From positions 1 through 57,283 of IMG/VR virus record IMGVR_UViG_3300032144_000012: DNA of 57,283 nucleotides; one strand, 5' to 3'. Below the pieces are notes generated by a model that saw only the letters and a program-made list of their open reading frames with translations, was not told the origin of the DNA and did not search any database. Position 1 is the stretch's first letter. Every line of letters starts with the position of its first letter. This DNA is from a virus. Shown in pieces: positions 6,009 to 44,216 of the stretch. Position numbers and translations under genes: made by a program.

Positions 6009-6346
6009 GCCTGCTCGACAACCCGACCGATGTCCTGCAGGTGTACGTGGAGGTCGACGGCACCGACAGCGACGGCAACGTCGTGAAGGTGCCCGGCGGA
6101 ACGCCTGTCGAGGTGAAGGGCCGGGTGCAGCCGTTCCGGCCGAACTCGGAGTCGTCGACGGGTGGTCAGGTCACGACGACGACGTATCAGTACATCGGCC
6201 GGACGTGGCCGTCCGGCGCGTTCGCTGCCGTGCAGTGGGATGGCCGCTGGTGGGACGTGGACGGTGAGCCGATGTGGTCGCGGGGTTCTGAGGCGACCCG
6301 GCACGTGACGGTCCGGTTGAGGGCTCGCGGTCCGCTGGAGGTGTAG
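6005..6346 (+). CDS. Putative head closure / stopper protein
   Basis: 113 residues started at a GTG overlapping the upstream stop. Mostly beta-strand pattern (VQVYVEVDG, VEVKGRVQPF, TYQYIGRTW, AAVQWDGRWWDV), typical of the small beta-barrel stopper that plugs the neck after packaging. Assigned from fold pattern and gene order; sequence motifs are weak. Confidence 0.6.
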   Translation: MSLLDNPTDVLQVYVEVDGTDSDGNVVKVPGGTPVEVKGRVQPFRPNSESSTGGQVTTTTYQYIGRTWPSGAFAAVQWDGRWWDVDGEPMWSRGSEATRHVTVRLRARGPLEV

Positions 6347-6350
6347 TCCG

Positions 6351-6650
6351 GTGGCGTCGGTAACCGAAAAGCTCGAGCTTCTGGTCGCGGGCATGCCTGG
6401 CGTGCGGAATGCGCGTGAGGAGCTCGCGGAGGAGCTGGGCCGGGAGGCGCAGTGGCGTCTCGGGCAGCACCGGGAGACCGGTGACGCGTCGATCGAGGTC
6501 GTGCATGACCGGCTCGACTCGTACGTGGTCCTCGATGATGACGCGTCGCTGTCGATCGAGTTCGGTCGTGGTGAGTTCACCCGCCCGGACGGTGTGAAGG
6601 TCGGCGCGATGGAGGGCCTGCACATCCTCCGTGACACTGCGGGCGGCTGA
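6351..6650 (+). CDS. HK97 gp10-like neck/tail joining protein
   Basis: 99 residues. It begins with a helix (VTEKLELLVAGMPGVRNARE) and then beta strands carrying DASIEV, DSYVVLDDD and SLSIEFG, the arrangement of HK97 gp10-like or DUF5403-type proteins lying between stopper and tail terminator in actinophages. It probably joins the head neck to the tail tube. No catalytic motif. Confidence 0.6.
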   Translation: MASVTEKLELLVAGMPGVRNAREELAEELGREAQWRLGQHRETGDASIEVVHDRLDSYVVLDDDASLSIEFGRGEFTRPDGVKVGAMEGLHILRDTAGG

Positions 6651-6652
6651 CC

Positions 6653-7063
6653 GTGTGGGGTGACGCGCAGGCCGTGTGCCTGGCGTACGCGCGCACGTCG
6701 ATCCCGGAGGCGCCGGGCGGGTGGCGGGTGCAGTCGGAGTTGCCGGCCGACTGGATCGCACGGTCGGCTACGGGCTTGTTCGTGGTGCGCGTGTCGGGGT
6801 CTCCGTCGCCGCTGGACTCCCGCTTCGACTGGCTCGGTCAGGCGATCGATGTGGACGCGTACGTGCCCGCTGACGGTGGCCGCGCCAGCGCGTTGGAGGC
6901 GATCCACGCGTTCAAGACCGCCCTCGTCGAGGGCGCGCACGTCACGGGTGCGGGGCGGACGAACTCGCCGCCGGAGATCGTGACCGTCCCGTTCAAGTTC
7001 CCCACCACCCCGCCGGGCGTGGCCCGGTACGTAGCGGCGTTCCGCGCCGTGTTCACGGCCTGA
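6653..7063 (+). CDS. Tail terminator protein
   Basis: 136 residues, GTG start two bases after the previous stop. The order (after gp10-like, before major tail protein), the size, and the alternating alpha/beta pattern with a long strand (GLFVVRVSG) and late FRAVFTA fit the ring protein that caps the growing tail tube and joins it to the head. No sequence motif is decisive. Confidence 0.65.
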   Translation: MWGDAQAVCLAYARTSIPEAPGGWRVQSELPADWIARSATGLFVVRVSGSPSPLDSRFDWLGQAIDVDAYVPADGGRASALEAIHAFKTALVEGAHVTGAGRTNSPPEIVTVPFKFPTTPPGVARYVAAFRAVFTA

Positions 7064-12897: not shown

Positions 12898-14039
12898 GGG
12901 TCGACGTCACGCTGTTCGACCACGAGTTCACGAAGATCGGCTTCGGTGACGGGTTCGAGCAGTTGGAGGTCACGGACCGGCTGAACGCAGTCGGCGAGTG
13001 CGTGATCGCATTGCCGACGACGAATCCCGACGGCGACGCGAACGAGCATGCGGCGAAGCTCCTGACCCCGGGGACGCGGGTCGTGGTGGACGTCACCCCG
13101 GATGGCGCGTCGAAGTTCCAGCTGTTCTCGGGGCCCGTGCAACGCATCGCCGCGTCGGGTCCGGCGGCGACCGCTGCCGTGCAGGCGACTTGCCGGTCGG
13201 ACTGGGCCCTGTTCGAGCGGGTCCTCGGCTGGTCAGTCCCCGCGTCGGCGATCACCGCACAGTCGGGCGCCGAGTTCTGGACGGCCACCGGCCCGGCGGA
13301 GACCGTGATCAAGGATCTCGTGGCGGCGAACGTCGTGGACCGGCTCGGGCTGCCCGTGAACGTCGCTACCGACCTGGGTCGCGGCTCGACGGTGACGGCG
13401 TCGATCCGATTCACACCCCTGGCCGACACGATCGCCGAGCTCGCCGCGCAAGGCGGCATCGGAGTCACGGTCACCCAAGGCGTGGGCGGGCTCGTCGTGG
13501 ACGTGTTCGAGGGCGTCGACCGGACGGCGCGCCTGTTCGACGAGTCCAACGGCGTCGTCACCTCCTGGGCGTGGTCCACGGTCGGACCAGCGGCGACCCG
13601 GCTTGTCGCTGGCGGTCCGGGTGAGGGCACGGCGCGGGAGTTCCGCACGGCCGTCAACGCCGGCCGGGAGACGACCGAGCGGGACGTGATCGAGACGTTC
13701 GTCGACATCACCGACGCGACGTCCGGATCGGACCTCGCGTCGAAGGGCGCTGCGGCGCTGGTCGGGATGGGCCGCACGTCGAGCCTGACTGTCGATCTCG
13801 GCGAGACCGCAGCGTCCCGGTATGGCAAGTCGTTCAAGGTCGGCGATCTCCTGCGGCTGGGCTACCTCGGCGCCGAGGTGACCGACGTGCTCCGCGAAGC
13901 GAAGCTCACGTTCACCGCCGCCGACGGCCCGGTGATCACCCCCACGGTCGGCGACCCCCTCACCGGAACCCCAGAGAAGGCCCTCGTCAAGCAGCTCGCG
14001 GCGATGGCCGCGAACGTCCGCAAGCTGAAAGCGAGGTGA
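12894..14039 (+). CDS. Minor tail protein, tail-hub (Tal/gp27-like)
   Basis: 381 residues from the GTG at 12894 that overlaps the previous stop; GTGs at 12888 and further upstream are possible but less likely. Contains FDHEFTKIGFGDGFEQLEVTDR and later TARLFDESNGVVTSWAW and GKSFKVGDLLRLGY, the beta-barrel pattern of the siphovirus hub protein (ReqiPepy6_gp37-like family). It would form the trimeric hub closing the tail below Dit. No lytic domain is attached. Confidence 0.7.
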   Translation: MRVDVTLFDHEFTKIGFGDGFEQLEVTDRLNAVGECVIALPTTNPDGDANEHAAKLLTPGTRVVVDVTPDGASKFQLFSGPVQRIAASGPAATAAVQATCRSDWALFERVLGWSVPASAITAQSGAEFWTATGPAETVIKDLVAANVVDRLGLPVNVATDLGRGSTVTASIRFTPLADTIAELAAQGGIGVTVTQGVGGLVVDVFEGVDRTARLFDESNGVVTSWAWSTVGPAATRLVAGGPGEGTAREFRTAVNAGRETTERDVIETFVDITDATSGSDLASKGAAALVGMGRTSSLTVDLGETAASRYGKSFKVGDLLRLGYLGAEVTDVLREAKLTFTAADGPVITPTVGDPLTGTPEKALVKQLAAMAANVRKLKAR

Positions 14040-24112: not shown

Positions 24113-24466
24113 TCAGGCGGGGTCGGGTTTGGCCCGGTACTGAGCTTCGAGGGCAGCGATCCGGCGCTCATGGTCGGCGACCTGAGCCGGGAGGCTTGCG
24201 GCATCCCCGCCCGCGATGAAGTGCCCGATGTCCGGCACCTTCACGATCCACCCCTCACCAGTGAGCTCGTCCAGGACGCGGCGGGCCGTGGTAGTGGACA
24301 CGTCCTCGGCGGCCATCAACCCGCGTACTGAGGGCGCCGGCTTTCCGGGCGAGTAGTCGCCGTCGGCGCGGTCCGCATCGACACGGATGCGGTCGATGAT
24401 CCGGTCCGCGATCTCGCGCCACTTCGCCACGCGCTCAGTGTGCCAGCCCGGCAGTCCGATTCTCAT
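24113..24466 (-). CDS. GntR-family transcriptional regulator (KorSA-like context)
   Basis: 117 residues from the ATG at 24466; a GTG at 24430 is an alternative start. Residues about 15-85 form a GntR winged helix: KWREIADRIIDRIRVD, then PAPSVRGLMAAEDVSTTTARRVLDEL and EGWIVKVPDIGHFI. A short coiled coil (about 90-110, ADHERRIAALEAQYR) takes the place of a ligand domain. It is divergent from the DUF2637/FtsK-like operon; on actinobacterial plasmids and integrative elements small GntR proteins of this type (KorSA of pSAM2) repress transfer genes. By analogy it likely represses both divergent promoters. Confidence 0.8.
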   Translation of the reverse strand: MRIGLPGWHTERVAKWREIADRIIDRIRVDADRADGDYSPGKPAPSVRGLMAAEDVSTTTARRVLDELTGEGWIVKVPDIGHFIAGGDAASLPAQVADHERRIAALEAQYRAKPDPA

Positions 24467-24475
24467 CACGGCACG

Positions 24476-24481
24476 AGTGTA
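24476..24481 (-). promoter_or_regulatory. Candidate -10 box for GntR gene
   Basis: Reverse-strand TACACT at 24481-24476. A start point 6-7 bases on would fall within a few bases of the ATG at 24466, giving a leaderless or nearly leaderless message, which fits the lack of a ribosome site. No convincing -35. Confidence 0.45.
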
Positions 24482-24507
24482 GTGGACCCGTGCGCGCACG
24501 GTGTGTG

Positions 24508-24513
24508 TATGCT
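24508..24513 (+). promoter_or_regulatory. Candidate -10 box for DUF2637/FtsK-like operon
   Basis: TATGCT at 24508-24513, seven bases before the GTG at 24521, so transcription would begin at or near the start codon (leaderless). No good -35 is visible. The first TGAGGGA copy overlaps the end of this box. Confidence 0.5.
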
Positions 24514-25229
24514 GAGGGACGTGACGAATCACCCGACCCACGTTGAGGGAGTCCCTCAGATGAGGGCGCTCCCATGGCCGGTCTGGCTGGGCATCGGTGT
24601 CTCCCTCATCGCCGCCGCGGTCGGGTCATGGGCGGGCCTCCAGTTCCTCGCGTCCGCCACCGGCTGGCTCTGGTGGTCCTCCCACCTGCTCCCCGCATCC
24701 GTGGACATCGGCGGCGTCTCCGCTGGCTGGGTGTGGTTGCGGGGCGTCGTCACCCCTCACGCCCGGCAGTACGCCCGGCGTCTCACGTTCTTCGCGGCGA
24801 CCCTCAGCCTCGGCGGGAACGCCGTCAGCCACCTGGTTGCTGAGGGGGTCCTCGACGGTGGCGCGTGGCCCCTCATCGTCGCCGTCGGTGCCATCCCCGC
24901 CGTGATGCTCGTGGCCCTCGTCCACCTCGCCGCGCTCGTCACCGAAATCCCTCACCGGCCGGAGTCGACAGCCGTGGAACCGACCGCTCCCGCCCCTCAG
25001 GTGAGGGCGCTGGCGTCGACGCCCACACCCTCGGCCGCTCCGGCGGTGAAGCCCTCACCCGCCGCCCGGGCGAATCGGCAAGGAGGGACCCGCCAGGCGA
25101 TCGTCCTCGACATCCTCACCCGGGCGAGTGCACCCGATGAGGTCCCTCAGCCCGCACAGATCCGTTCCGACTGGAACGTCTCCCAGGCCACCGCCGAGAG
25201 GGTCCGGGCCGAAGTGCTCGCTGCCCTCA
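24513..25229. repeat. Cluster of 15 CCCTCA/TGAGGG hexamers
   Basis: Counted by eye on both strands, first bases at 24513, 24544, 24553, 24561, 24603, 24754, 24801, 24841, 24870, 24949, 24994, 25002, 25052, 25144 and 25224. Six copies extend to TCCCTCA. Two pairs form perfect palindromes: TGAGGGA-G-TCCCTCA at 24544-24558 and CCCTCA-GG-TGAGGG at 24994-25007. The cluster spans the promoter and whole coding region of the DUF2637-like gene; elsewhere nearby the hexamer appears about once per kb. Confidence 0.7.
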
Positions 25230-25258
25230 ACACCACCCCCACCACCCAGGAGGCATGA
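24521..25258 (+). CDS. DUF2637-like membrane protein with C-terminal HTH-like segment
   Basis: 245 residues from the GTG at 24521; an ATG at 24560 after GAGGGAG is an alternative. Four membrane helices (about 20-44, 50-75, 86-107, 117-140) in the pattern of DUF2637 proteins, which on actinobacterial plasmids, integrative elements and some phages lie beside FtsK-like transfer genes and are thought to be Spd-like membrane partners. After a Pro/Ala-rich linker, residues about 185-238 (RQAIVLDILTRA ... WNVSQATAERVRAEVLAAL) look like a helix-turn-helix. The gene itself carries the CCCTCA cluster. Confidence 0.7.
   Translation: MTNHPTHVEGVPQMRALPWPVWLGIGVSLIAAAVGSWAGLQFLASATGWLWWSSHLLPASVDIGGVSAGWVWLRGVVTPHARQYARRLTFFAATLSLGGNAVSHLVAEGVLDGGAWPLIVAVGAIPAVMLVALVHLAALVTEIPHRPESTAVEPTAPAPQVRALASTPTPSAAPAVKPSPAARANRQGGTRQAIVLDILTRASAPDEVPQPAQIRSDWNVSQATAERVRAEVLAALNTTPTTQEA
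24544..24558. promoter_or_regulatory. Palindromic operator candidate
   Basis: Perfect 7-bp inverted repeat TGAGGGA-G-TCCCTCA just inside the start of the DUF2637-like gene, about 25 bases downstream of the predicted transcription start. Placed well for repression by the divergent GntR protein, but it belongs to the wider hexamer cluster and may serve another binder. Confidence 0.5.
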
Positions 25259-25377
25259 CCGTGACCGACCCCACCCCCACCCGCACGGAGCCGACCGGCT
25301 TCGACAAGGCGCTCACCCTGATCGCCGCCGTGCTGATCGGCGCCGCCATTGGTGTCGTGATCGGCAACCTCTGGTGA
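25255..25377 (+). CDS. Tiny single-pass membrane protein
   Basis: 40 residues; the ATG overlaps the upstream stop (ATGA) after an AGGAGG ribosome site; GTG 25261 is an alternative. Polar N-terminus, then one membrane helix (LTLIAAVLIGAAIGVVIGNL). Its end overlaps the next start. Small membrane proteins of this kind accompany spread genes on actinobacterial plasmids; role unknown. Confidence 0.5.
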   Translation: MTVTDPTPTRTEPTGFDKALTLIAAVLIGAAIGVVIGNLW

Positions 25378-25565
25378 ACGAGTTCCAGATCTTCAACGGC
25401 GACACCCCGGTCGAGAAGTTCGAACACACGACCGACCCGTACAACGCCAAACAGTGCGTTGACCTGCTGAAACGCTACGCCGACGCCAACGGCATCGACC
25501 GAGCCAAGGCCAAGGTCGTCACCTACCAGAACGGGCGGAAAGCCCGCACCTTCCGCGCCATGTGA
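25374..25565 (+). CDS. Small soluble protein, unknown
   Basis: 63 residues, GTGA overlap with the previous gene. Contains DPYNAKQCVDLLKRYADANG and ends in a basic stretch (VVTYQNGRKARTFRAM). No family recognised; probably co-translated with the two upstream genes. Confidence 0.5.
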   Translation: MNEFQIFNGDTPVEKFEHTTDPYNAKQCVDLLKRYADANGIDRAKAKVVTYQNGRKARTFRAM

Positions 25566-25570
25566 GCCAG

Positions 25571-25646
25571 GTGGGCACTGGGCACTGGGCACTCGGGAAC
25601 GGTGCCCTACGCGCGCAGGCGCGCGCGCGAGACCCGCAGTGCCCAC
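25571..25646. repeat. Intergenic GGGCACT tandem repeat and 10-bp inverted repeat
   Basis: In the 131-base gap between 25565 and 25697 there are three adjacent GGGCACT units (25573-25593), and GTGGGCACTG (25571-25580) is exactly matched by CAGTGCCCAC (25637-25646). An alternating CG tract separates the arms. It could be an operator, attenuator or small RNA fold within the transfer-like operon; no T-run follows. Confidence 0.6.
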
Positions 25647-25696
25647 AAACGCACCGTCCAGCACCACCCGTCAACACCAGAAGGGGAGTGGTCACC

Positions 25697-26158
25697 GTGG
25701 CATCGGGGGCGCTCTGGTTCGTGCTGTTCCTCCTCGGCTGCGGCCTGCTCGCCGCGACGCCGCGTCTCGGTTGGGCGACCGGCCGGGCGATCTCCCTGCG
25801 CCTCGCCATGCTCGTGTTCGTCGCCGCCGGAACCGTCGGCCTGTCCGGGCTCCTCGGCGACTTCCTCGACTGGGCGGTCACCTCGATCACGACGTGGGGG
25901 AACAACGCCGCTGTCGCCACGGTCGGCGCCGCCGTCATGTGGGTGGTGTGGCTGTCGCTGTGCGTGGTCTGGGCCGCCGGGTTCCTCCCGACGAAGGTCA
26001 TCCGGTTCGACCCGAACGACCTGCTGGCAGCGACCGGCCTGATCCTGCCCGCGGTCGCGGAGGCGATCCCCGGCGCGGCGGGGGACTTCTTCACCAACCT
26101 GTTCGACGCGATCGGCGAGTTCTTCGTCGACCTCGTCACCAGCTGGTTCGGGGGCTGA
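25697..26158 (+). CDS. Multi-pass membrane protein of FtsK-like operon
   Basis: 153 residues from the GTG at 25697, eight bases after AAGGGGAG; GTG 25688 is an alternative. Three or four membrane helices (about 2-20, 30-50, 68-95, with a further amphipathic part near 110-150) and a C-terminal DAIGEFFVDLVTSWFGG. No family recognised. Membrane proteins between the DUF2637 and FtsK-like genes suggest a membrane complex. Confidence 0.55.
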   Translation: MASGALWFVLFLLGCGLLAATPRLGWATGRAISLRLAMLVFVAAGTVGLSGLLGDFLDWAVTSITTWGNNAAVATVGAAVMWVVWLSLCVVWAAGFLPTKVIRFDPNDLLAATGLILPAVAEAIPGAAGDFFTNLFDAIGEFFVDLVTSWFGG

Positions 26159-26160
26159 CC

Positions 26161-27012
26161 GTGGACCTCGTCATCGCCACCATCGTCGTCCTGTACCTCA
26201 CTGGCGGGTTCGACAGGTACACCCTGCGCGCGACCCGCGGCGCGGCCGGGTTCGTCTCGGCTGGCGCGAAGGGCGCCGCCCGGCACGTGAAGGCCGAACG
26301 CGCGAAGACCGCGAAGCAGCGCGCCCGGGAACGCGACAGGCGACACGCCCGCATGTGGGCGTCCGGGTTCTGGGGCCGCGTCGGCGTCTGCGCCGAGAAG
26401 GGTGCGTGGATCGCGGGCCGCTGGACCGCGAACGGCGTCCGCACCGCGTGGGCCGGGGCGACCGCGGCACCCGAGGGCTACACGAAGGCCGCAGACGCCG
26501 CCGTCCAGCGCAAGGCCGAGCGGAAGGCCAAGCGCGCCGAAGCGAAGAAGCGCCGGCGCGAATCAGCGGACGCCCGGTTCCTGATGGGCGACGCCGAGCC
26601 ATTCATCCCTGACACCTCCGCCGCGACCGCGGCCGAGGACGCCACCCCGGAGGAGAACCCCGTGACCGACACCACCGACATCCGCGTGAGCGAACTGACG
26701 AACGTCGGCGACCTCATCGCCTGCACCCAGCGGCTCATCTCCCACGTCGAGGCGCTGAGCGACGACACCTACCAATACATCATGGCCGCCAGCGGTCTGC
26801 CTGAGGCGCTCAGCGAGGCCGGCTTCTCGACGCGGCTCATCGCGGGCGCTGTGGAGAGCGTGCAGGAGGCGCTCCTCGACATGCGCCCACTGCTGGCCGC
26901 CCAGGAAGCCCTCAGCTCGCTGCTGGCTGCCGCGAAGGCCGCGGCTGACATCGGTGACGCCGTGGAGGCGCAGGCCGCGTCGGGCGACGCCCAGAGGTTC
27001 GTGACGGCCTGA
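26161..27012 (+). CDS. Membrane-anchored basic/coiled protein of FtsK-like operon
   Basis: 283 residues, GTG start two bases after the previous stop. A short N-terminal membrane segment (LVIATIVVLYLTG) is followed by a strongly basic helical region (about 40-140, with KAERKAKRAEAKKRRRES) that could bind nucleic acid, then an acidic and helical C-terminal domain. Direct neighbour of the FtsK-like ATPase, with one base between them. Family not recognised; possible partner or DNA-binding adaptor of the translocase (inference). Confidence 0.55.
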   Translation: MDLVIATIVVLYLTGGFDRYTLRATRGAAGFVSAGAKGAARHVKAERAKTAKQRARERDRRHARMWASGFWGRVGVCAEKGAWIAGRWTANGVRTAWAGATAAPEGYTKAADAAVQRKAERKAKRAEAKKRRRESADARFLMGDAEPFIPDTSAATAAEDATPEENPVTDTTDIRVSELTNVGDLIACTQRLISHVEALSDDTYQYIMAASGLPEALSEAGFSTRLIAGAVESVQEALLDMRPLLAAQEALSSLLAAAKAAADIGDAVEAQAASGDAQRFVTA

Positions 27013-27013
27013 C

Positions 27014-28837
27014 ATGACACAGACGACCGCCGCCCCTAGGCAGGCCGAGGTTCGGGAGCCTTCCGCGTTCGCGATGCTCCCGGCGACCGTGGCCGCGCTG
27101 GCGTGGCGCACCCGCTGGCACACCGCACCTGTCACCGCCGGTGCCGTGGTGTGGGTGGCCGGATGCGCCACGCCAGAGGTCGCGGCGCTCGTCATGTCGG
27201 TGGTGTCCGGGCTCGCGTACCGCGCGGCCCGGCACCCCCGCCCCCGGAAGCGGAAGTACCTGTCCGAGCGGGAGCGGTACACCCTCGCCCTGTGGGGGAC
27301 CGCCTGCACGGCGTGGGCGGTCGCCGTCTCCGCCTTGGCACCGGAGCCGCTCTGGTCCGCTGCCGCCCTGGCCGCCCTGACCGCCTTCCCCGCGGTCAGG
27401 TGGGTCACGTCCCGTCGGGTCCGCGCCCGGAAGGTCAGCCGGGACGCCGCTAGGTACGTGACGGCGTGGGACAAGGTCGTCGCCGTCATCGGACACCTGG
27501 AGGTCCGCGCATCCCACGTCCTGCGCGACACCATCGTCGTGCCCGGTGACGGTGCCGTCAGCTTCGTCGTCCAACTCCGCACGCACGCCGAGAACGTCGC
27601 GACAGCCGAAGTGCGCAAGGCCATCGAATTGCTCTTGGACCTCCCGCACGGGGCGCTCACCCTCGCGATCGTCGGCGACAGCGTGAAGCTGCTGCGGGTC
27701 ACGATCAGCCCGAAGCACCACCTCGCCGCCGCGCCTGTGCCCTACTCCGGGCCCAAGGTCCAGCCGGACGGGCGCATCCTCATCGCCCGCACCCCCGACG
27801 GCCGGCGGGTCGGCCCGCGCGTGTTCGACAAGGACGGCGTGAAGCACATGTGGATCAACGGGGGGACGGGGACGGGGAAGTCCACTACCGCTGCGATCAC
27901 GCTCATGGCCCCCGTCATCGACGGCCACGAGTTGCTGATCTACCTCGACGGGAACGGTGGAACCTCTCTGTCCCCGGAACTCGAGCCGCTCATGACCGTG
28001 ATCGCCGAAACGCCGGAGGAGTGGCGCGCGGCGATCGATGCGTTCGGCGCCCTGCTCGACTACCGAGCGGCGACCCGGAGGCGGATCACGAGTTGGCGCG
28101 GCAAGGGCAACGAGCCGTACCTCGCCGTCCGGCTGGTCATCGAGGAGGCCCCGGAGGTCTCCCCGCAGGTCTCAGGCCGCCACCACCAGACCGTCGCACG
28201 CGCCGGACGGGTCGGCCGCAAGCTCGGCCTCGGCACCACTCAGATCAGCCAGGGCACGAACGCCGACCAGCTCGTCGGCGGCACCGCGTGGCGAATGAAC
28301 GCCACACAGACGATCATCCACCGGCCCGGCGACAGCCAGAACGCGAACAAGGCAGCAGCCAGCGCGAACACCGGCCACCTCCGCGGCGTGGACCCGATGC
28401 GCTTACCCCCCGAGGAGGGCTGGGTCGCGCTGATCGACAACGGCGTAGTAGTTCACCAGGCGCGCGTCGAGTACGCAGAGCCCCAGGAGCGAGCCGCATA
28501 CACGGCCGGGTTCACCACGCCGCAGTTCACGGACGGCGAGCGGGCCGTGGTCGAGACGATCCTCAACGCCGAGCCGGAACCCAGCGAGGAGTCGGTGGCC
28601 GAGCAGAAGACGACCCGGGAACGTCTCGTGGACGTCCTGCGCGCGCACAAGCGCATCACCCTCGGCGGGATCGCCGGGCCGGGCGGCAGCGAACGCCCTC
28701 ACGCCGAGTGCGACGCGGACGGCTGCCCCGGCTGGAACGTGTCCCGCACCCAGACATCTAGGCACCTGATCGCCCTCCAGTCCGAGGGCGTCGTCTCACA
28801 GGAGGACAAGCAATGGTTCGTCGTCTCGCCGTCGTAG
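27014..28837 (+). CDS. FtsK/SpoIIIE-family DNA translocase (TraB/TraSA-like)
   Basis: 607 residues. N-terminal hydrophobic segments (about 38-70 and 90-130) would anchor it in the membrane; the motor has Walker A GGTGTGKS (283-290), Walker B RLVIEEAPEV (373-382) and a sensor-like LGLGTTQISQGTNADQL. The C-terminal 75 residues resemble a winged helix, the place of the DNA-recognising gamma domain in FtsK and TraB. In actinobacterial conjugation a single such hexameric pump moves double-stranded DNA between cells. Typical phages lack it, so it may move episomal or chromosomal DNA from lysogens, or aid segregation. Transfer function is inferred from family and neighbours. Confidence 0.85.
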   Translation: MTQTTAAPRQAEVREPSAFAMLPATVAALAWRTRWHTAPVTAGAVVWVAGCATPEVAALVMSVVSGLAYRAARHPRPRKRKYLSERERYTLALWGTACTAWAVAVSALAPEPLWSAAALAALTAFPAVRWVTSRRVRARKVSRDAARYVTAWDKVVAVIGHLEVRASHVLRDTIVVPGDGAVSFVVQLRTHAENVATAEVRKAIELLLDLPHGALTLAIVGDSVKLLRVTISPKHHLAAAPVPYSGPKVQPDGRILIARTPDGRRVGPRVFDKDGVKHMWINGGTGTGKSTTAAITLMAPVIDGHELLIYLDGNGGTSLSPELEPLMTVIAETPEEWRAAIDAFGALLDYRAATRRRITSWRGKGNEPYLAVRLVIEEAPEVSPQVSGRHHQTVARAGRVGRKLGLGTTQISQGTNADQLVGGTAWRMNATQTIIHRPGDSQNANKAAASANTGHLRGVDPMRLPPEEGWVALIDNGVVVHQARVEYAEPQERAAYTAGFTTPQFTDGERAVVETILNAEPEPSEESVAEQKTTRERLVDVLRAHKRITLGGIAGPGGSERPHAECDADGCPGWNVSRTQTSRHLIALQSEGVVSQEDKQWFVVSPS

Positions 28838-29052
28838 GCGCATCCCTCATCGCAGCGGTCGCGGCGTGGCCGGTGGTGTGGTCCCTGGCTGGGGTGACCC
28901 TCGCGTCGGGCGCCGGCCCGGCCGGGCAGATCCCCGCGACCATCGGGATCCTCGGCGGCATCGCCCTCCTCGCGGGGTTCATCGCCGGACTGGTCGTGCC
29001 GTACTGCGTGACCAAGCGCCCGGTGCCCGACGTGGCGGAGATCGGCTCGTGA
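28813..29052 (+). CDS. Small two-helix membrane protein
   Basis: 79 residues; the ATG lies 25 bases inside the translocase gene behind GGAGGACAAG. Two membrane helices (about 5-28 and 40-66) with a short polar end. Translationally linked to the FtsK-like gene; function unknown. Confidence 0.55.
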   Translation: MVRRLAVVGASLIAAVAAWPVVWSLAGVTLASGAGPAGQIPATIGILGGIALLAGFIAGLVVPYCVTKRPVPDVAEIGS

Positions 29053-29294
29053 ACGACGGCCGCGCCTTCTACGTGGAACGTCCGACGTGCGCCTGGTGCG
29101 AGCGCGAGGGCGTGGAGCAGTGCGCGCACGGCGACTGGTGCTGCCCTGACCACGTCCATGACCACGACGCGCAGGTCGACGAGGTCATCGCCCGAGGCAT
29201 GCGCTCGGAACAGTTCGTCGACCGGGTCATCCTCGTCGCCGCGATCGGCGTCGTCGTGCTCCTGGCGTTCGCGTTGAAGGCGGTGCTCGAGTGA
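29049..29294 (+). CDS. Zinc-motif protein with C-terminal membrane helix
   Basis: 81 residues, GTGA overlap. The N-terminal part has closely spaced Cys/His residues (CAWCEREG, QCAHGDWCCPDHVHDHD), a likely zinc site, and the end is a membrane helix (VILVAAIGVVVLLAFAL). A tail-anchored zinc protein of unknown role. Confidence 0.55.
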   Translation: MNDGRAFYVERPTCAWCEREGVEQCAHGDWCCPDHVHDHDAQVDEVIARGMRSEQFVDRVILVAAIGVVVLLAFALKAVLE

Positions 29295-29440
29295 GCGAGC
29301 CCCTGGACGCTGTCGCGGTCGCGTACGAGGCGGTGCGCGCCGCTGAGCCCACCGAGTACGTGACGGACCCGGTCGAGGTGGCCGCCCTGATCGCCGCGTC
29401 ACCCTTTGCTCCCCGCCGGCGCCCGTGGTGGCGTAGGTGA
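29291..29440 (+). CDS. Very small protein
   Basis: 49 residues, GTGA overlaps on both sides. Acidic helix (DAVAVAYEAVRAAEP) with a basic, Trp-containing end (RRRPWWRR). Supported by overlap with neighbours; function unknown. Confidence 0.45.
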   Translation: MSEPLDAVAVAYEAVRAAEPTEYVTDPVEVAALIAASPFAPRRRPWWRR

Positions 29441-30003
29441 ACGGGAAGGGCCACTACGCCCTCGGCGCGTCCGCCGGCCTGGTGTACGCGCAGCTGGCGC
29501 CGGTGACGTGGTGGCAGGGCATCCTGGCCGTCCCGGTCGCGGCGGGAGTGTCGTACGCCGCCGTGTCCCCGGACATCGACCAGTCGAAGCTCTGGCGCTG
29601 GCTGGACAAGCCCGTACCGGACGAGGCCCTCGGCAACGGCGGCCCCATGCAGCACCGGGGGGTTTCGCACTGGTGGGGGATCTTCGCTGCCCTGACGTGG
29701 GTGTGGTGGACGGCGACACCCCGCGACCTGTGGTTCGGGCTGCTGTTCGCCGTCCTCGGCGCCGTCATGGCGGGCTGGTGGTCGCACCTGGCCGCCGATG
29801 CCGTCGTCGGGCGTGCCGGTCAGGGCCGCCGCGCGGGGGTTCCGCTGCTGCCGTGGTGGGCGCACATCGGGCTCGGGTTCAAGTGCGGCGGGCCCGTCGA
29901 GCGAGCCCTCACCTACGTCGTGCCGGTAGCCGTCCTGGCCTGGTCGATCTGGCACGCCCCAATCGCCCACGACGCGTGGGCATTCACCACAGGAGGAATC
30001 TGA
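29437..30003 (+). CDS. YdjM-like membrane-bound metal-dependent hydrolase (DUF457)
   Basis: 188 residues. Several membrane helices plus the conserved histidine/aspartate pattern of the YdjM/DUF457 family: an N-terminal GHYALGASAGL, SPDIDQSK, and HRGVSHWW, with a later GWWSHLAADAV. Relatives are predicted phospholipase-C-like, membrane-bound metal hydrolases that often occur in phages, prophages and SOS regulons. Substrate unknown. It follows the translocase module and is coupled to its neighbours by overlapping codons. Confidence 0.75.
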   Translation: MNGKGHYALGASAGLVYAQLAPVTWWQGILAVPVAAGVSYAAVSPDIDQSKLWRWLDKPVPDEALGNGGPMQHRGVSHWWGIFAALTWVWWTATPRDLWFGLLFAVLGAVMAGWWSHLAADAVVGRAGQGRRAGVPLLPWWAHIGLGFKCGGPVERALTYVVPVAVLAWSIWHAPIAHDAWAFTTGGI

Positions 30004-32558: not shown

Positions 32559-33443
32559 TCAGGCCAGCACCGGGAGGACGGACACGGCCGCGTGCGCCCG
32601 CGCGGGCTGCACGTACACGTACTTCTGCGTCGTCGCGAGCGATGCGTGCCCGAGAAGGACCTGCACCACGCGGATGTCGGCGCCGTTCTCGACCATCGTC
32701 GTCGCGAACCACCTGCGGAGGCTGTGACACGTCCCAGGGACCGCGGCACGGTCCATGGCCCGGCTCAGGCCGATGATGACGCTCTTGACGTTCACGGGGC
32801 GCGCGGTCGCCTGACGCGAGGGGAACCAGTAGCCGCGGTCGGGTGCGGACAGGCGGGCGTACTCGAGGATCAGGTCGTGGACGGGCACGTATCGGGTCTT
32901 GTCGCCCTTGCCGATCACTTCCATGACGCCCGCGTGGTGGTCGATGTCTTCGGCGCGGACCTTCGCGATCTCGTGGGCGCGTAGGCCGGCGTAGGCGCCG
33001 AGCAGGGCCATGCCGCGGGTGCGGGTGCGGATCTGGGAGGTGAGGAGGGCTTGGATGTGCGCGTTGAGGATGGGGCGCATCTGTCCGTTGGGCACCTTGG
33101 GGGACGTGATGCCGTCCATGGGGTTGTCGGCCCTGATGCCTTGCCCGACGAGGTAGGAGTGCCACGCCCGGAGCCCGAAGTAGTAGGTGGACCGGCTGTT
33201 CTTGGACAGGTCGGGGCGGGCGAGGTACATGAGGATGTCGTCTTCGTCGAGGTGGAAGACGTCGAGTCCTTCGACGGTGGCGAGGCGCCGGATCTGTCTG
33301 GGGCGTTCGGTGGCGGTGGTCTCGGCCAGTCCGGCTGCTCGCATGCGTGTGGTCCAGCGGCGGAGCTGTGGTTCGAGGTGGAGGGCCGGGAGCGGCGACG
33401 GTGACGCTGTGTAGACCTCTGCGGTTCTCTGAGTCATCCCCAT
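32559..33443 (-). CDS. int: Tyrosine-family site-specific integrase
   Basis: 294 residues from the ATG at 33443 (ATG 33437 is possible; an upstream TTG is unlikely). The N-terminal core-binding/SAM-like domain (about 10-115) precedes the catalytic domain with R155 (AYAGLRAHEIAKV), K180/K182 (GKGDKTRYVP), H240 and R243 (CHSLRRW), H266 (LLGHASLATT) and nucleophile Y275 (QKYVYV). No long arm-type domain, so it is a compact, XerC-like recombinase. It integrates the phage genome at an attB not visible here. Two genes of the same strand flank it. Confidence 0.9.
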   Translation of the reverse strand: MGMTQRTAEVYTASPSPLPALHLEPQLRRWTTRMRAAGLAETTATERPRQIRRLATVEGLDVFHLDEDDILMYLARPDLSKNSRSTYYFGLRAWHSYLVGQGIRADNPMDGITSPKVPNGQMRPILNAHIQALLTSQIRTRTRGMALLGAYAGLRAHEIAKVRAEDIDHHAGVMEVIGKGDKTRYVPVHDLILEYARLSAPDRGYWFPSRQATARPVNVKSVIIGLSRAMDRAAVPGTCHSLRRWFATTMVENGADIRVVQVLLGHASLATTQKYVYVQPARAHAAVSVLPVLA

Positions 33444-33453
33444 AAGTCGGTGT

Positions 33454-33514
33454 CCCGTAACGGGCGTGATCGACTCAAGTGGTGCACTCGTCAATCATCC
33501 GTTCGGGGGATTGA
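33454..33514. other. Inverted repeats between integrase and repressor
   Basis: The 75-base gap holds CCCGT-A-ACGGG (33454-33464) just upstream of the integrase start and TCAATC (33491-33496) with GATTGA (33509-33514). These could be regulator or recombinase arm sites. No attP core or tRNA-like sequence could be recognised. Confidence 0.35.
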
Positions 33515-42640: not shown

Positions 42641-42795
42641 ACGCCGTCGAGTTCGAAGCGCTCTGCCCCCACAGGCGCCTCGTGGTCTGGCGCGCCACCG
42701 GCGGCGGAGGCGTCACCGCCCACTCCGAACCCCGATGCCCCGCCTGGCACGACGGCAGGGCACGACTCATCGACCTCATCTGGGGGTACCAGTGA
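42637..42795 (+). CDS. Very small protein between methyltransferases
   Basis: 52 residues, GTGA overlaps at both ends. Contains CPHRRLVVWRATGGGGVTAH and RCPAWHDGR, so two Cys and several His. Unknown function. Confidence 0.45.
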   Translation: MNAVEFEALCPHRRLVVWRATGGGGVTAHSEPRCPAWHDGRARLIDLIWGYQ

Positions 42796-44216
42796 CCGCC
42801 CTCCAGCACGTCTCTCTGTTCAGCGGAGTCGGCGGCATCGACCTCGCCATGCACCGCGCCGGGATCCAGACCGTCGCAGCCGTCGAGATCGACCGGGCCG
42901 CCCGCGGAGTCCTCGCCGACCAGTTCCCCCTCGTCAACCTGTTCACCGACGTCAGAGAGGTCACCGGTGACAAGCTCCGCCGTCTCGGACTCAAACCACG
43001 CAACACCATCGTCTCCGCCGGCTTCCCATGCCAAGACCTCTCCGTGGCGGGCCGTCGTCGGGGCATGGGTGAAGGCACACGCTCCGGGCTCTACTGGGAA
43101 GTCGACCGCATCCTGGCCGATTTCGCTCCCGCCTGGGTCGTGCTCGAGAACGTCCCTGGCCTCCTGTCGGCGTCCTGCGCCTGCCCTGGAGACGGCACGT
43201 GCGTGGAGCGAGCCCTCGCTGTTCGATGCGACGGAGAGACCCACGGAGTCCCTGGCGGAGCCTGCTGGGGACAGTGCATCCCCCGCCACGGCGGCGTCAT
43301 GGGTGCCGTCGTTGGGAGCCTGGGAGAACGCGGGTATGGGTTCGCCTACCGAGTGCTGGACGCTCGACACTTCGGAGTGCCCCAGCGGCGCCGCCGCGTC
43401 GTCATTGTCGGACGTCTTGGAGACGACGGGCGAGCACCTGCGCGCGTACTTCTTGAGCCCGAAGGCGTGCGCGGGAATCCTGCGCAGGGCATCACGCCGA
43501 GGACGCTCACTGCCGCCCGCGCTGGAGGCAGCACTGCGTCGAGTCGCGTCACGTCAGCCCTGACCACCAGGTCCACGACAGCCCTCGATGACCAGGGCAT
43601 CGCACAGCTCGTCGTCGGCGTCCTCGGTCAGCACTCGCACGCCCTCACCGCCGAAGGGCACGACGCATCCGAGGACGGCGCCGGTCGGGGCACGCCCATC
43701 GTCACCGTCGCCTTCGACCCGAAAGCGGGCGGAGACCGGACCTCGTCCGGCGCGTTCGAGGTCGGCACCGGCATCACACCGACGCTCAGCGGCGCCCGCT
43801 CACCCGCCGTCCTCTACGCCGCAGACATCGCCAACGCCCTCGACACCGCCCAGGGCGGGCCCGACGACAACAACTCCGCCCAGGGCGGGCACCTCGTCGC
43901 GTTCGCCGAGAACCAGAGAGGCGAACTCGTGGAATCGGCCACGGTCGGCGCACTCGCGCAGGGCGGAGGGAAACCCGGACAGGGGTACCCGGCCGTCCAC
44001 GACGGAACCATCGTCCGCCGGCTCACCCCGCTCGAATGCGAGCGCCTCCAGGGCTTCCCCGACGGCCACACCGACACCAGCTGGGGACGACCCCAGGCCG
44101 ACTCGCCCCGAGGCAAGCAGATGGGCAACGCCGTCGCCGTCCCCGTCTTCGAGTGGGTCGCGCGTCGAATCGACGCCGTCCACCGCCACCTGCTCACCGC
44201 GAAGGACGTGGCCTGA
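42792..44216 (+). CDS. C5-cytosine DNA methyltransferase with large insertion
   Basis: 474 residues from the GTG at 42792. Motif I LFSGVGGIDLA, motif IV FPCQ with nucleophile C80, motif VI ENVPG, motif VIII QRRRRV, motif IX/X RRLTPLECERLQGFP and GNAVAVPV are all present. Between VIII and IX lies a stretch of about 185 residues (about 220-405) that is Gly/Thr/Ala-rich, longer than a usual target recognition domain. A Cys-rich piece (CACPGDGTC, CWGQC) is inserted after ENVPG. Makes 5-methylcytosine; cognate nuclease absent. Confidence 0.9.
   Translation: MTALQHVSLFSGVGGIDLAMHRAGIQTVAAVEIDRAARGVLADQFPLVNLFTDVREVTGDKLRRLGLKPRNTIVSAGFPCQDLSVAGRRRGMGEGTRSGLYWEVDRILADFAPAWVVLENVPGLLSASCACPGDGTCVERALAVRCDGETHGVPGGACWGQCIPRHGGVMGAVVGSLGERGYGFAYRVLDARHFGVPQRRRRVVIVGRLGDDGRAPARVLLEPEGVRGNPAQGITPRTLTAARAGGSTASSRVTSALTTRSTTALDDQGIAQLVVGVLGQHSHALTAEGHDASEDGAGRGTPIVTVAFDPKAGGDRTSSGAFEVGTGITPTLSGARSPAVLYAADIANALDTAQGGPDDNNSAQGGHLVAFAENQRGELVESATVGALAQGGGKPGQGYPAVHDGTIVRRLTPLECERLQGFPDGHTDTSWGRPQADSPRGKQMGNAVAVPVFEWVARRIDAVHRHLLTAKDVA

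Follow-up and report, generated by a model that had tools for sequence, protein, structure and literature searches.

A repeated DNA word in the gene of a DUF2637-like membrane protein, within a plasmid-type module of a temperate phage

What would a block of genes of the kind that moves plasmid DNA do in a temperate phage, and which of its proteins would recognize the DNA to be moved? This question is raised by a locus at positions 24113-30003 of the window, that is, of the whole stretch of 57,283 nucleotides analysed here.

Gene content of the module and its phage context

The record, a linear IMG/VR virus contig of 57 kb, comes from a temperate siphophage of a soil bacterium. To the left of the module lie the genes for the portal, the major head protein, the tape measure, the tail and the endolysin, and to the right those for a tyrosine integrase (32559..33494, minus strand; PF00589, E 2e-24), a Cro/C1-type repressor, RecT, a WhiB-like protein and a methyltransferase. 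The module is thus flanked by lysis genes on one side and by the integrase on the other, and the integrase adjoins the phage immunity genes. The methyltransferase gene (42735-44216) has an extra stretch that matches the phage primase family phrog_864. The head protein gene shares 73% DNA identity with Arthrobacter phages, and its product is 62-66% identical to head proteins of Streptomyces, Allonocardiopsis and Longimycelium prophages. No AICE Rep (RepSA, RepAM or Prim-Pol) was matched among the proteins scanned, a part of the window's ORFs, and neither a relaxase nor an AICE Rep was identified near the ATPase of the module.

The gene order given in the preliminary description, namely a divergent GntR gene, a DUF2637-like gene, small membrane protein genes, an FtsK/HerA-type ATPase gene and a YdjM gene, was confirmed. 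The small GntR-type regulator said to diverge from the DUF2637-like gene (24113..24466, minus strand, with its ATG at 24466) scored over the cut-off of PF00392 (E 4.8e-9), and the perfect palindrome CCGTGCGCGCACGG between the two divergent genes (24488..24501) is its candidate operator. The further membrane proteins claimed there were found as plus-strand ORFs at 25261..25377 (38 aa), 25694..26158, 26161..27012, 28813..29052 (79 aa) and 29049..29294 (CxxC-type motifs and one membrane helix), and a small soluble protein of 63 aa is encoded at 25374..25565 on the same strand. The product of 25694..26158 is weakly like its counterpart in the actinomycete genome G122 (29% over 97 aa, E 0.04). That of 26161..27012, formed by a membrane helix, a basic stretch and a helical C-terminus, resembles the protein encoded by the gene that precedes ftsK in G122 (31% over 121 aa, E 3e-7). 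After the ATPase gene, the YdjM-type membrane protein (29437..30003, plus strand) was also over its cut-off (PF04307, E 3.6e-11).

The DUF2637-like membrane protein (24560..25258, plus strand, 232 aa) stayed under the cut-off of the DUF2637 profile PF10935, with E 0.022 and 15.1 bits against the 22.8 required, and its hhalign match to DUF2637 was weak but correctly placed (E 0.011, against 0.6 for a neighbouring membrane protein). In its AlphaFold model (mean pLDDT 65) the membrane helices are followed by a disordered linker and then by a C-terminal unit made of helices; the modelled helices span residues 6-34, 44-63, 66-99 and 103-128, and 177-188 and 198-224 in the C-terminal part. Both sequence and model describe this C-terminus as helix-turn-helix-like (HTH; about 25088-25231). 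With moderate confidence, the predicted protein matches a plan of membrane domain, linker and C-terminal HTH. Relatives of this particular protein were not found in viral contigs or phages. DUF2637-type proteins were present in 105 of 297 sampled actinomycete genomes and were named in only one paper of the open-access literature searched.

The CCCTCA array and its counterparts

An array of the word CCCTCA/TGAGGG was absent from the preliminary description, yet it is the most telling feature of the module. Fifteen copies lie within 717 bases (24513..25229), where less than one is expected, a 19-fold enrichment; the whole window has 56. The copies are located at 24513, 24544, 24553, 24561, 24603, 24754, 24801, 24841, 24870, 24949, 24994, 25002, 25052, 25144 and 25224, and further ones occur outside the array at 24252 and 24329. 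The probability of the cluster was about 2e-18 in its 8.7-kb stretch, while the best unrelated word cluster elsewhere in the window reached 3e-7. It is also possible to see two overlapping palindromes, which together cover 24544..24566: TGAGGGAGTCCCTCA (24544-24558), with arms TGAGGGA and TCCCTCA around a central G, and the perfect inverted repeat CCCTCA-GA-TGAGGG (24553-24566), which contains the start codon of the DUF2637-like gene.

Such words might have no function in cis and might derive from repetitive low-complexity linker peptides or from codon bias, considering that many linkers of these proteins are rich in Pro, Ala and Glu and that in L225, L232 and L273 most sites fall in one frame. 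Against this, the copies in the window are distributed over both strands and over each of the three frames, and they outnumber those obtained in synonymous-codon shuffles (12 within the gene, against a mean of 2.5 and a maximum of 7 in 3000 shuffles), and the same holds for the GGCTCA, CGCCTCA, GTCCGGA and other groups. Moreover, the single-base variants of CCCTCA were not enriched. The array of the window is under selection at the DNA level; an origin in peptide repeats or codon usage is already contradicted for it by the frame, strand and shuffle tests, and we regard it as very improbable.

The same kind of array was looked for in other elements. A DUF2637 alignment, used to scan IMG/VR, retrieved 68 loci, of which 60 extend for 700 bp or more past the domain. 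An array (p<1e-7), lying within the gene or next to it, was present in 54 of these 60, compared with 6 of 80 control loci taken from phages sharing the head protein of the window; the eight loci with less than 700 bp after the domain had none. Among chromosomal (AICE-type) DUF2637 loci only 7 of 49 had an array, some of these being CAG-type repeats. The guess that every DUF2637 gene carries an array was therefore rejected, the chromosomal AICE-type genes being mostly devoid of it. One of the few chromosomal arrays, with 14 copies of CGAGACG at a DUF2637 gene (L210:1671), is located in an actinomycete chromosome and possibly belongs to a prophage or an integrated plasmid.

The word differs from element to element. 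The viral classes comprise GGCTCA, CGGCTGC/CGGATGC/CGAGTGC/GGGTGCG, CGCCTCA, CTGGCA, GTCCGGA, GCGAACA, GCGCGCC and others, and CGGCTGC, CGGATGC and CGAGTGC fit CGNNTGC. In the membrane-HTH genes of plasmids and phage-plasmids the words were CCGGACCGG (L002), CCGTACAGG (L005), GCTTCA (L003) and GGCTCA (L014). The genes of L002 (692-3319) and L005 (898-3117) encode coiled-coil membrane proteins of great length, and the linker peptides of these proteins (RTGPDRTG... and RTGT...) look shaped by the DNA word and not by the needs of the protein.

The location varies as well. In VWB-like phages the array starts about at the end of the membrane domain and covers the stretch that encodes the linker. 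The isolated temperate Streptomyces phage VWB also has it, running on into gp25 (28 CGCACCC within about 1 kb, from the 3' half of gp24 into gp25; L222:6736-7900). For the Gilgamesh group, very dense arrays with 40-60 copies of GCGCGCC per kb (L223:8305-9305 and L276-L292) are found downstream of the gene for an AAA ATPase, which adjoins the DUF2637 gene, and a ParB-like gene adjoins the Gilgamesh locus. In the Woodruffvirus phages L217, L220, L221 and L224 (about 6090-6830) and in L216 (near 6137), which are isolated Streptomyces phages, clusters of 5-8 copies of CCGTTCC/CGTTCC sit between the TM-HTH gene and the gene of an FtsK-like translocase. No description of arrays in DUF2637-type or phage genes was found in the open-access papers searched, a collection lying apart from most subscription papers and from all bioRxiv preprints; only SpdA/sps surfaced.

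Taking into account the position of the first sites, the DUF2637-type protein could be a membrane-bound autoregulator that represses its own operon through many operators, with no movement of DNA. Three sites fall in the 93-bp promoter region and the start codon is inside a palindrome, as in pSVH1, where an sps palindrome likewise overlaps the start codon of spdA (PMC4170104). But ten to thirty sites spread over hundreds of coding bases are more than an operator needs, most relatives have their sites away from the promoter, either within the 3' half of the gene or downstream of it, and the GntR protein is already a regulator, so that we consider autoregulation as the sole function to be unlikely.

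The probable reader of the array and the kinship of the ATPase

A key aspect is which protein would bind the word. Across 40 non-redundant genes, the similarity between words tracked the similarity of the last 60 residues of the encoded protein (partial Mantel r 0.93, p 0.0005), whereas its correlation with membrane-domain similarity in the same genes was 0.11 (p 0.10). The correlation with the HTH was 0.89 when the words were taken from the linker DNA alone, with the HTH-coding part excluded, and the HTH signal was weak (0.15) when they came from the membrane-domain DNA alone.

Two domain swaps that occur in nature fit this relationship. L014 has a membrane domain unrelated to DUF2637 and an HTH identical to that of L264 in 45 of 54 positions (83%), and GGCTCA is common to both (17 and 19 copies). 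The membrane domain of pSAM1 is also unrelated to DUF2637, its HTH is identical in 31-32 of 54 positions (57-59%) to those of L231 and L239, and the three have CGCNTCA in common (11, 13 and 12 copies, respectively). Conversely, L231 and L264 share about 70% membrane domain identity with L234, and both HTH and word differ. These comparisons point to the DUF2637-type HTH as the reader of the array. It should be considered that array and HTH are physically linked, and therefore recombination could move both together without binding. The HTH of the window bears just a distant resemblance to the HTHs of the large set (best similarity 0.13) and is too divergent for direct comparison, and therefore its putative link to CCCTCA rests on analogy and on its own array.

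The other candidate reader is the ATPase (27014..28837, plus strand), which has N-terminal membrane helices. The FtsK-type ATPase with Walker A/B and a winged-helix-like end that had been proposed from the letters was recovered here: Walker A is GGTGTGKS (residues 283-290, 27860-27883), LVIEE is the likely Walker B (near 28133-28147) and the structure model gives a winged helix at residues 534-606 (about 28613-28831). The model is confident only in this C-terminal winged helix and is poor for the motor. The match to PF01580 (FtsK/SpoIIIE) was below the Pfam cut-off (E 0.0011), and a profile of the family of this ATPase matched HerA structures in the PDB; the profile evidence places the predicted enzyme in the FtsK-HerA group.

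A search of 395 actinomycete genomes gave one near full-length relative, in G122 (36% identity over residues 7-513, E 2.7e-43), and no close relatives appeared in phages or plasmids at 1e-5 or by exact-pattern scans. L181 was a false relative, being an ArsA-like ATPase. The G122 island adjoins purC and contains, in this order, genes for GntR, a WhiB-like protein, DUF2637 (over the cut-off), a membrane protein, a membrane/coil protein and the ATPase. The label of AICE was dropped for this island, since its contig has no integrase and gave no Rep match, and the label therefore goes too far. In G122, GTACTAGTAC palindromes flank the GntR gene on both sides (L183, reverse complement, 4824, 5649 and 5674) and are likely operators of that regulator; 10 GGTGGCCA-type repeats are also found in L183, at 13442-13570.

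In the tree of motor domains, in which several of the branches are long and were flagged by the tree program, the window ATPase pairs with that of G122 (support 100/98), and both join the ATPases of pSAM1, of an S. janthinus phage-plasmid and of S. anulatus plasmids (96/95). Kinship with housekeeping FtsK, which the preliminary description had named as evidence against a transfer role, was not observed, as housekeeping FtsK forms a separate clade (100/99). As to the expected clustering with TraB/TraSA, the window ATPase groups with plasmid and phage-plasmid ATPases and not with the AICE TraSA-like group: the AICE-type ATPases L311, L314 and L323, two of them beside DUF2637 genes, form a clade apart, and the Woodruffvirus translocases are also placed elsewhere. 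The description of the locus as a plasmid/AICE-style transfer module thus stands as to the resemblance of the block to actinobacterial plasmid and AICE transfer blocks, and has to be narrowed as to the ATPase, which is outside the classical AICE TraSA group. This ATPase looks like a gain of the window phage, because no match was obtained in 36 related phage records (many of them fragments, in a search run without a positive control).

Could the array be a site where the ATPase loads by means of its winged helix, similar to clt or KOPS? TraB reads 8-bp TRS repeats at clt of Streptomyces plasmids in this way (PMC4170104), and clt is also bound by the Tra proteins of AICEs (PMC3218068). In the window the array lies close to the ATPase gene, and the CCGTTCC clusters of Woodruffvirus are located between the TM-HTH gene and ftsK. 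However, the plasmids L002 and L005 (S. anulatus and S. cyaneofuscatus) have ATPases that are 94% identical, including the winged helix with its recognition helix, and their arrays differ and their array genes are largely unrelated. In addition, G122, with the closest ATPase, has no such array, and most array loci have no FtsK in the examined flank. The L002/L005 comparison, together with the covariation of HTH and word, makes the ATPase improbable as the reader, and we give a loading site of this type little credit.

A proposed role for the module and its known counterparts

The comparison across elements suggests that DUF2637-type proteins bind the word of their own gene and tie viral DNA to the membrane. 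For the window, we propose that the module is a plasmid/AICE-type block for DNA movement aboard a temperate phage. The DUF2637-like protein would reside in the membrane, and its C-terminal HTH would bind the about 15 CCCTCA sites distributed over its own promoter and coding sequence. The resulting nucleoprotein complex of many sites would attach the DNA of the phage or prophage to the membrane and, in addition, probably limit the expression of the DUF2637-like gene. Double-stranded DNA anchored in this way would be pumped by the FtsK/HerA-type ATPase through a septum or a contact between hyphae, either to reach an adjacent compartment or cell or to be segregated, and the GntR protein would control the operon. 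Tethering is suggested by the architecture of the protein in the structure model, and pumping by the family of the ATPase and by the knowledge of TraB. Most viral array loci, with the exception of the Gilgamesh group, are without a P-loop ATPase in the examined flank, and array and pump therefore need not cooperate. On balance we lean towards a membrane-anchored protein that binds the array of its own gene and tethers the phage DNA beside an FtsK-type pump.

The same components could form a partition device, in which the array is a centromere and membrane protein and pump place or clear DNA at septa with no transfer from cell to cell. The SpdA2 protein of pIJ101 binds sps palindromes of 12 bp located in the gene that encodes it, and its deletion mildly lowers segregational stability (PMC4170104). 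It is in line with this that arrays are common in phage and plasmid DUF2637 genes and rare in chromosomal ones, and that Gilgamesh has the ParB-like neighbour. On the other hand, both VWB and the window have an integrase gene and would be expected to be passed on with the chromosome, so there is no obvious need for stable extrachromosomal maintenance, and the ATPase groups with those of transfer type. A device for partition only is thus a possibility that we take seriously and consider doubtful.

Beyond the window, we think it probable that there is a widespread class of membrane proteins in actinobacterial phages and plasmids whose gene holds a dense private array of a 6-8 bp word, spread through the coding sequence in all frames and read by the C-terminal HTH, which tethers its own replicon; HTH and word would diversify together, and an FtsK-type pump would sometimes be coupled. 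This offers a testable function for DUF2637-type proteins, and the array words are ready DNA targets. If the proposal is true, a coding sequence doubles as a centromere- or clt-like locus, and phages are linked to the spreading machinery of Streptomyces-type plasmids, a temperate phage possibly gaining a second way of moving DNA.

By comparison with known systems, SpdA2/sps of pIJ101 may be regarded as a small precedent for an array in its own gene, since it is also a DNA-binding protein of a mobile element that is specific for short palindromes in or at its own gene. SpdA differs in its size (117-163 aa), in its N-terminal DNA-binding region and in having, in most plasmids, 1-3 copies of one conserved 12-bp site, whereas the DUF2637-type is a membrane protein with a C-terminal HTH and 10-50 sites whose word varies between elements. 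With TraB/clt, AICE Tra and Spd the module has in common an FtsK/HerA-type ATPase with membrane helices and winged helix, GntR control, small membrane proteins nearby and a repeat locus. It departs from TraB/clt and AICE Tra in that its ATPase does not belong to the classical AICE TraSA group as sampled here, the repeats track the DUF2637 HTH and not the ATPase, and the carrier is a phage. In pSAM1 and related 90-kb Streptomyces phage-plasmids, a GntR gene, a TM-HTH gene, small genes and an FtsK-type ATPase gene are likewise located beside phage genes, but those ATPases have a large extra N-terminal region and about 21-28% identity with that of the window, and the window phage, unlike them, has an integrase. 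Finally, in Woodruffvirus (BayC, YDN12, Xkcd426 and Mischief19), isolated and complete phages, the TM-HTH gene adjoins that of an 'FtsK-like DNA translocase'; their membrane domain and ATPase are of other families, and the repeat cluster is weaker and intergenic.
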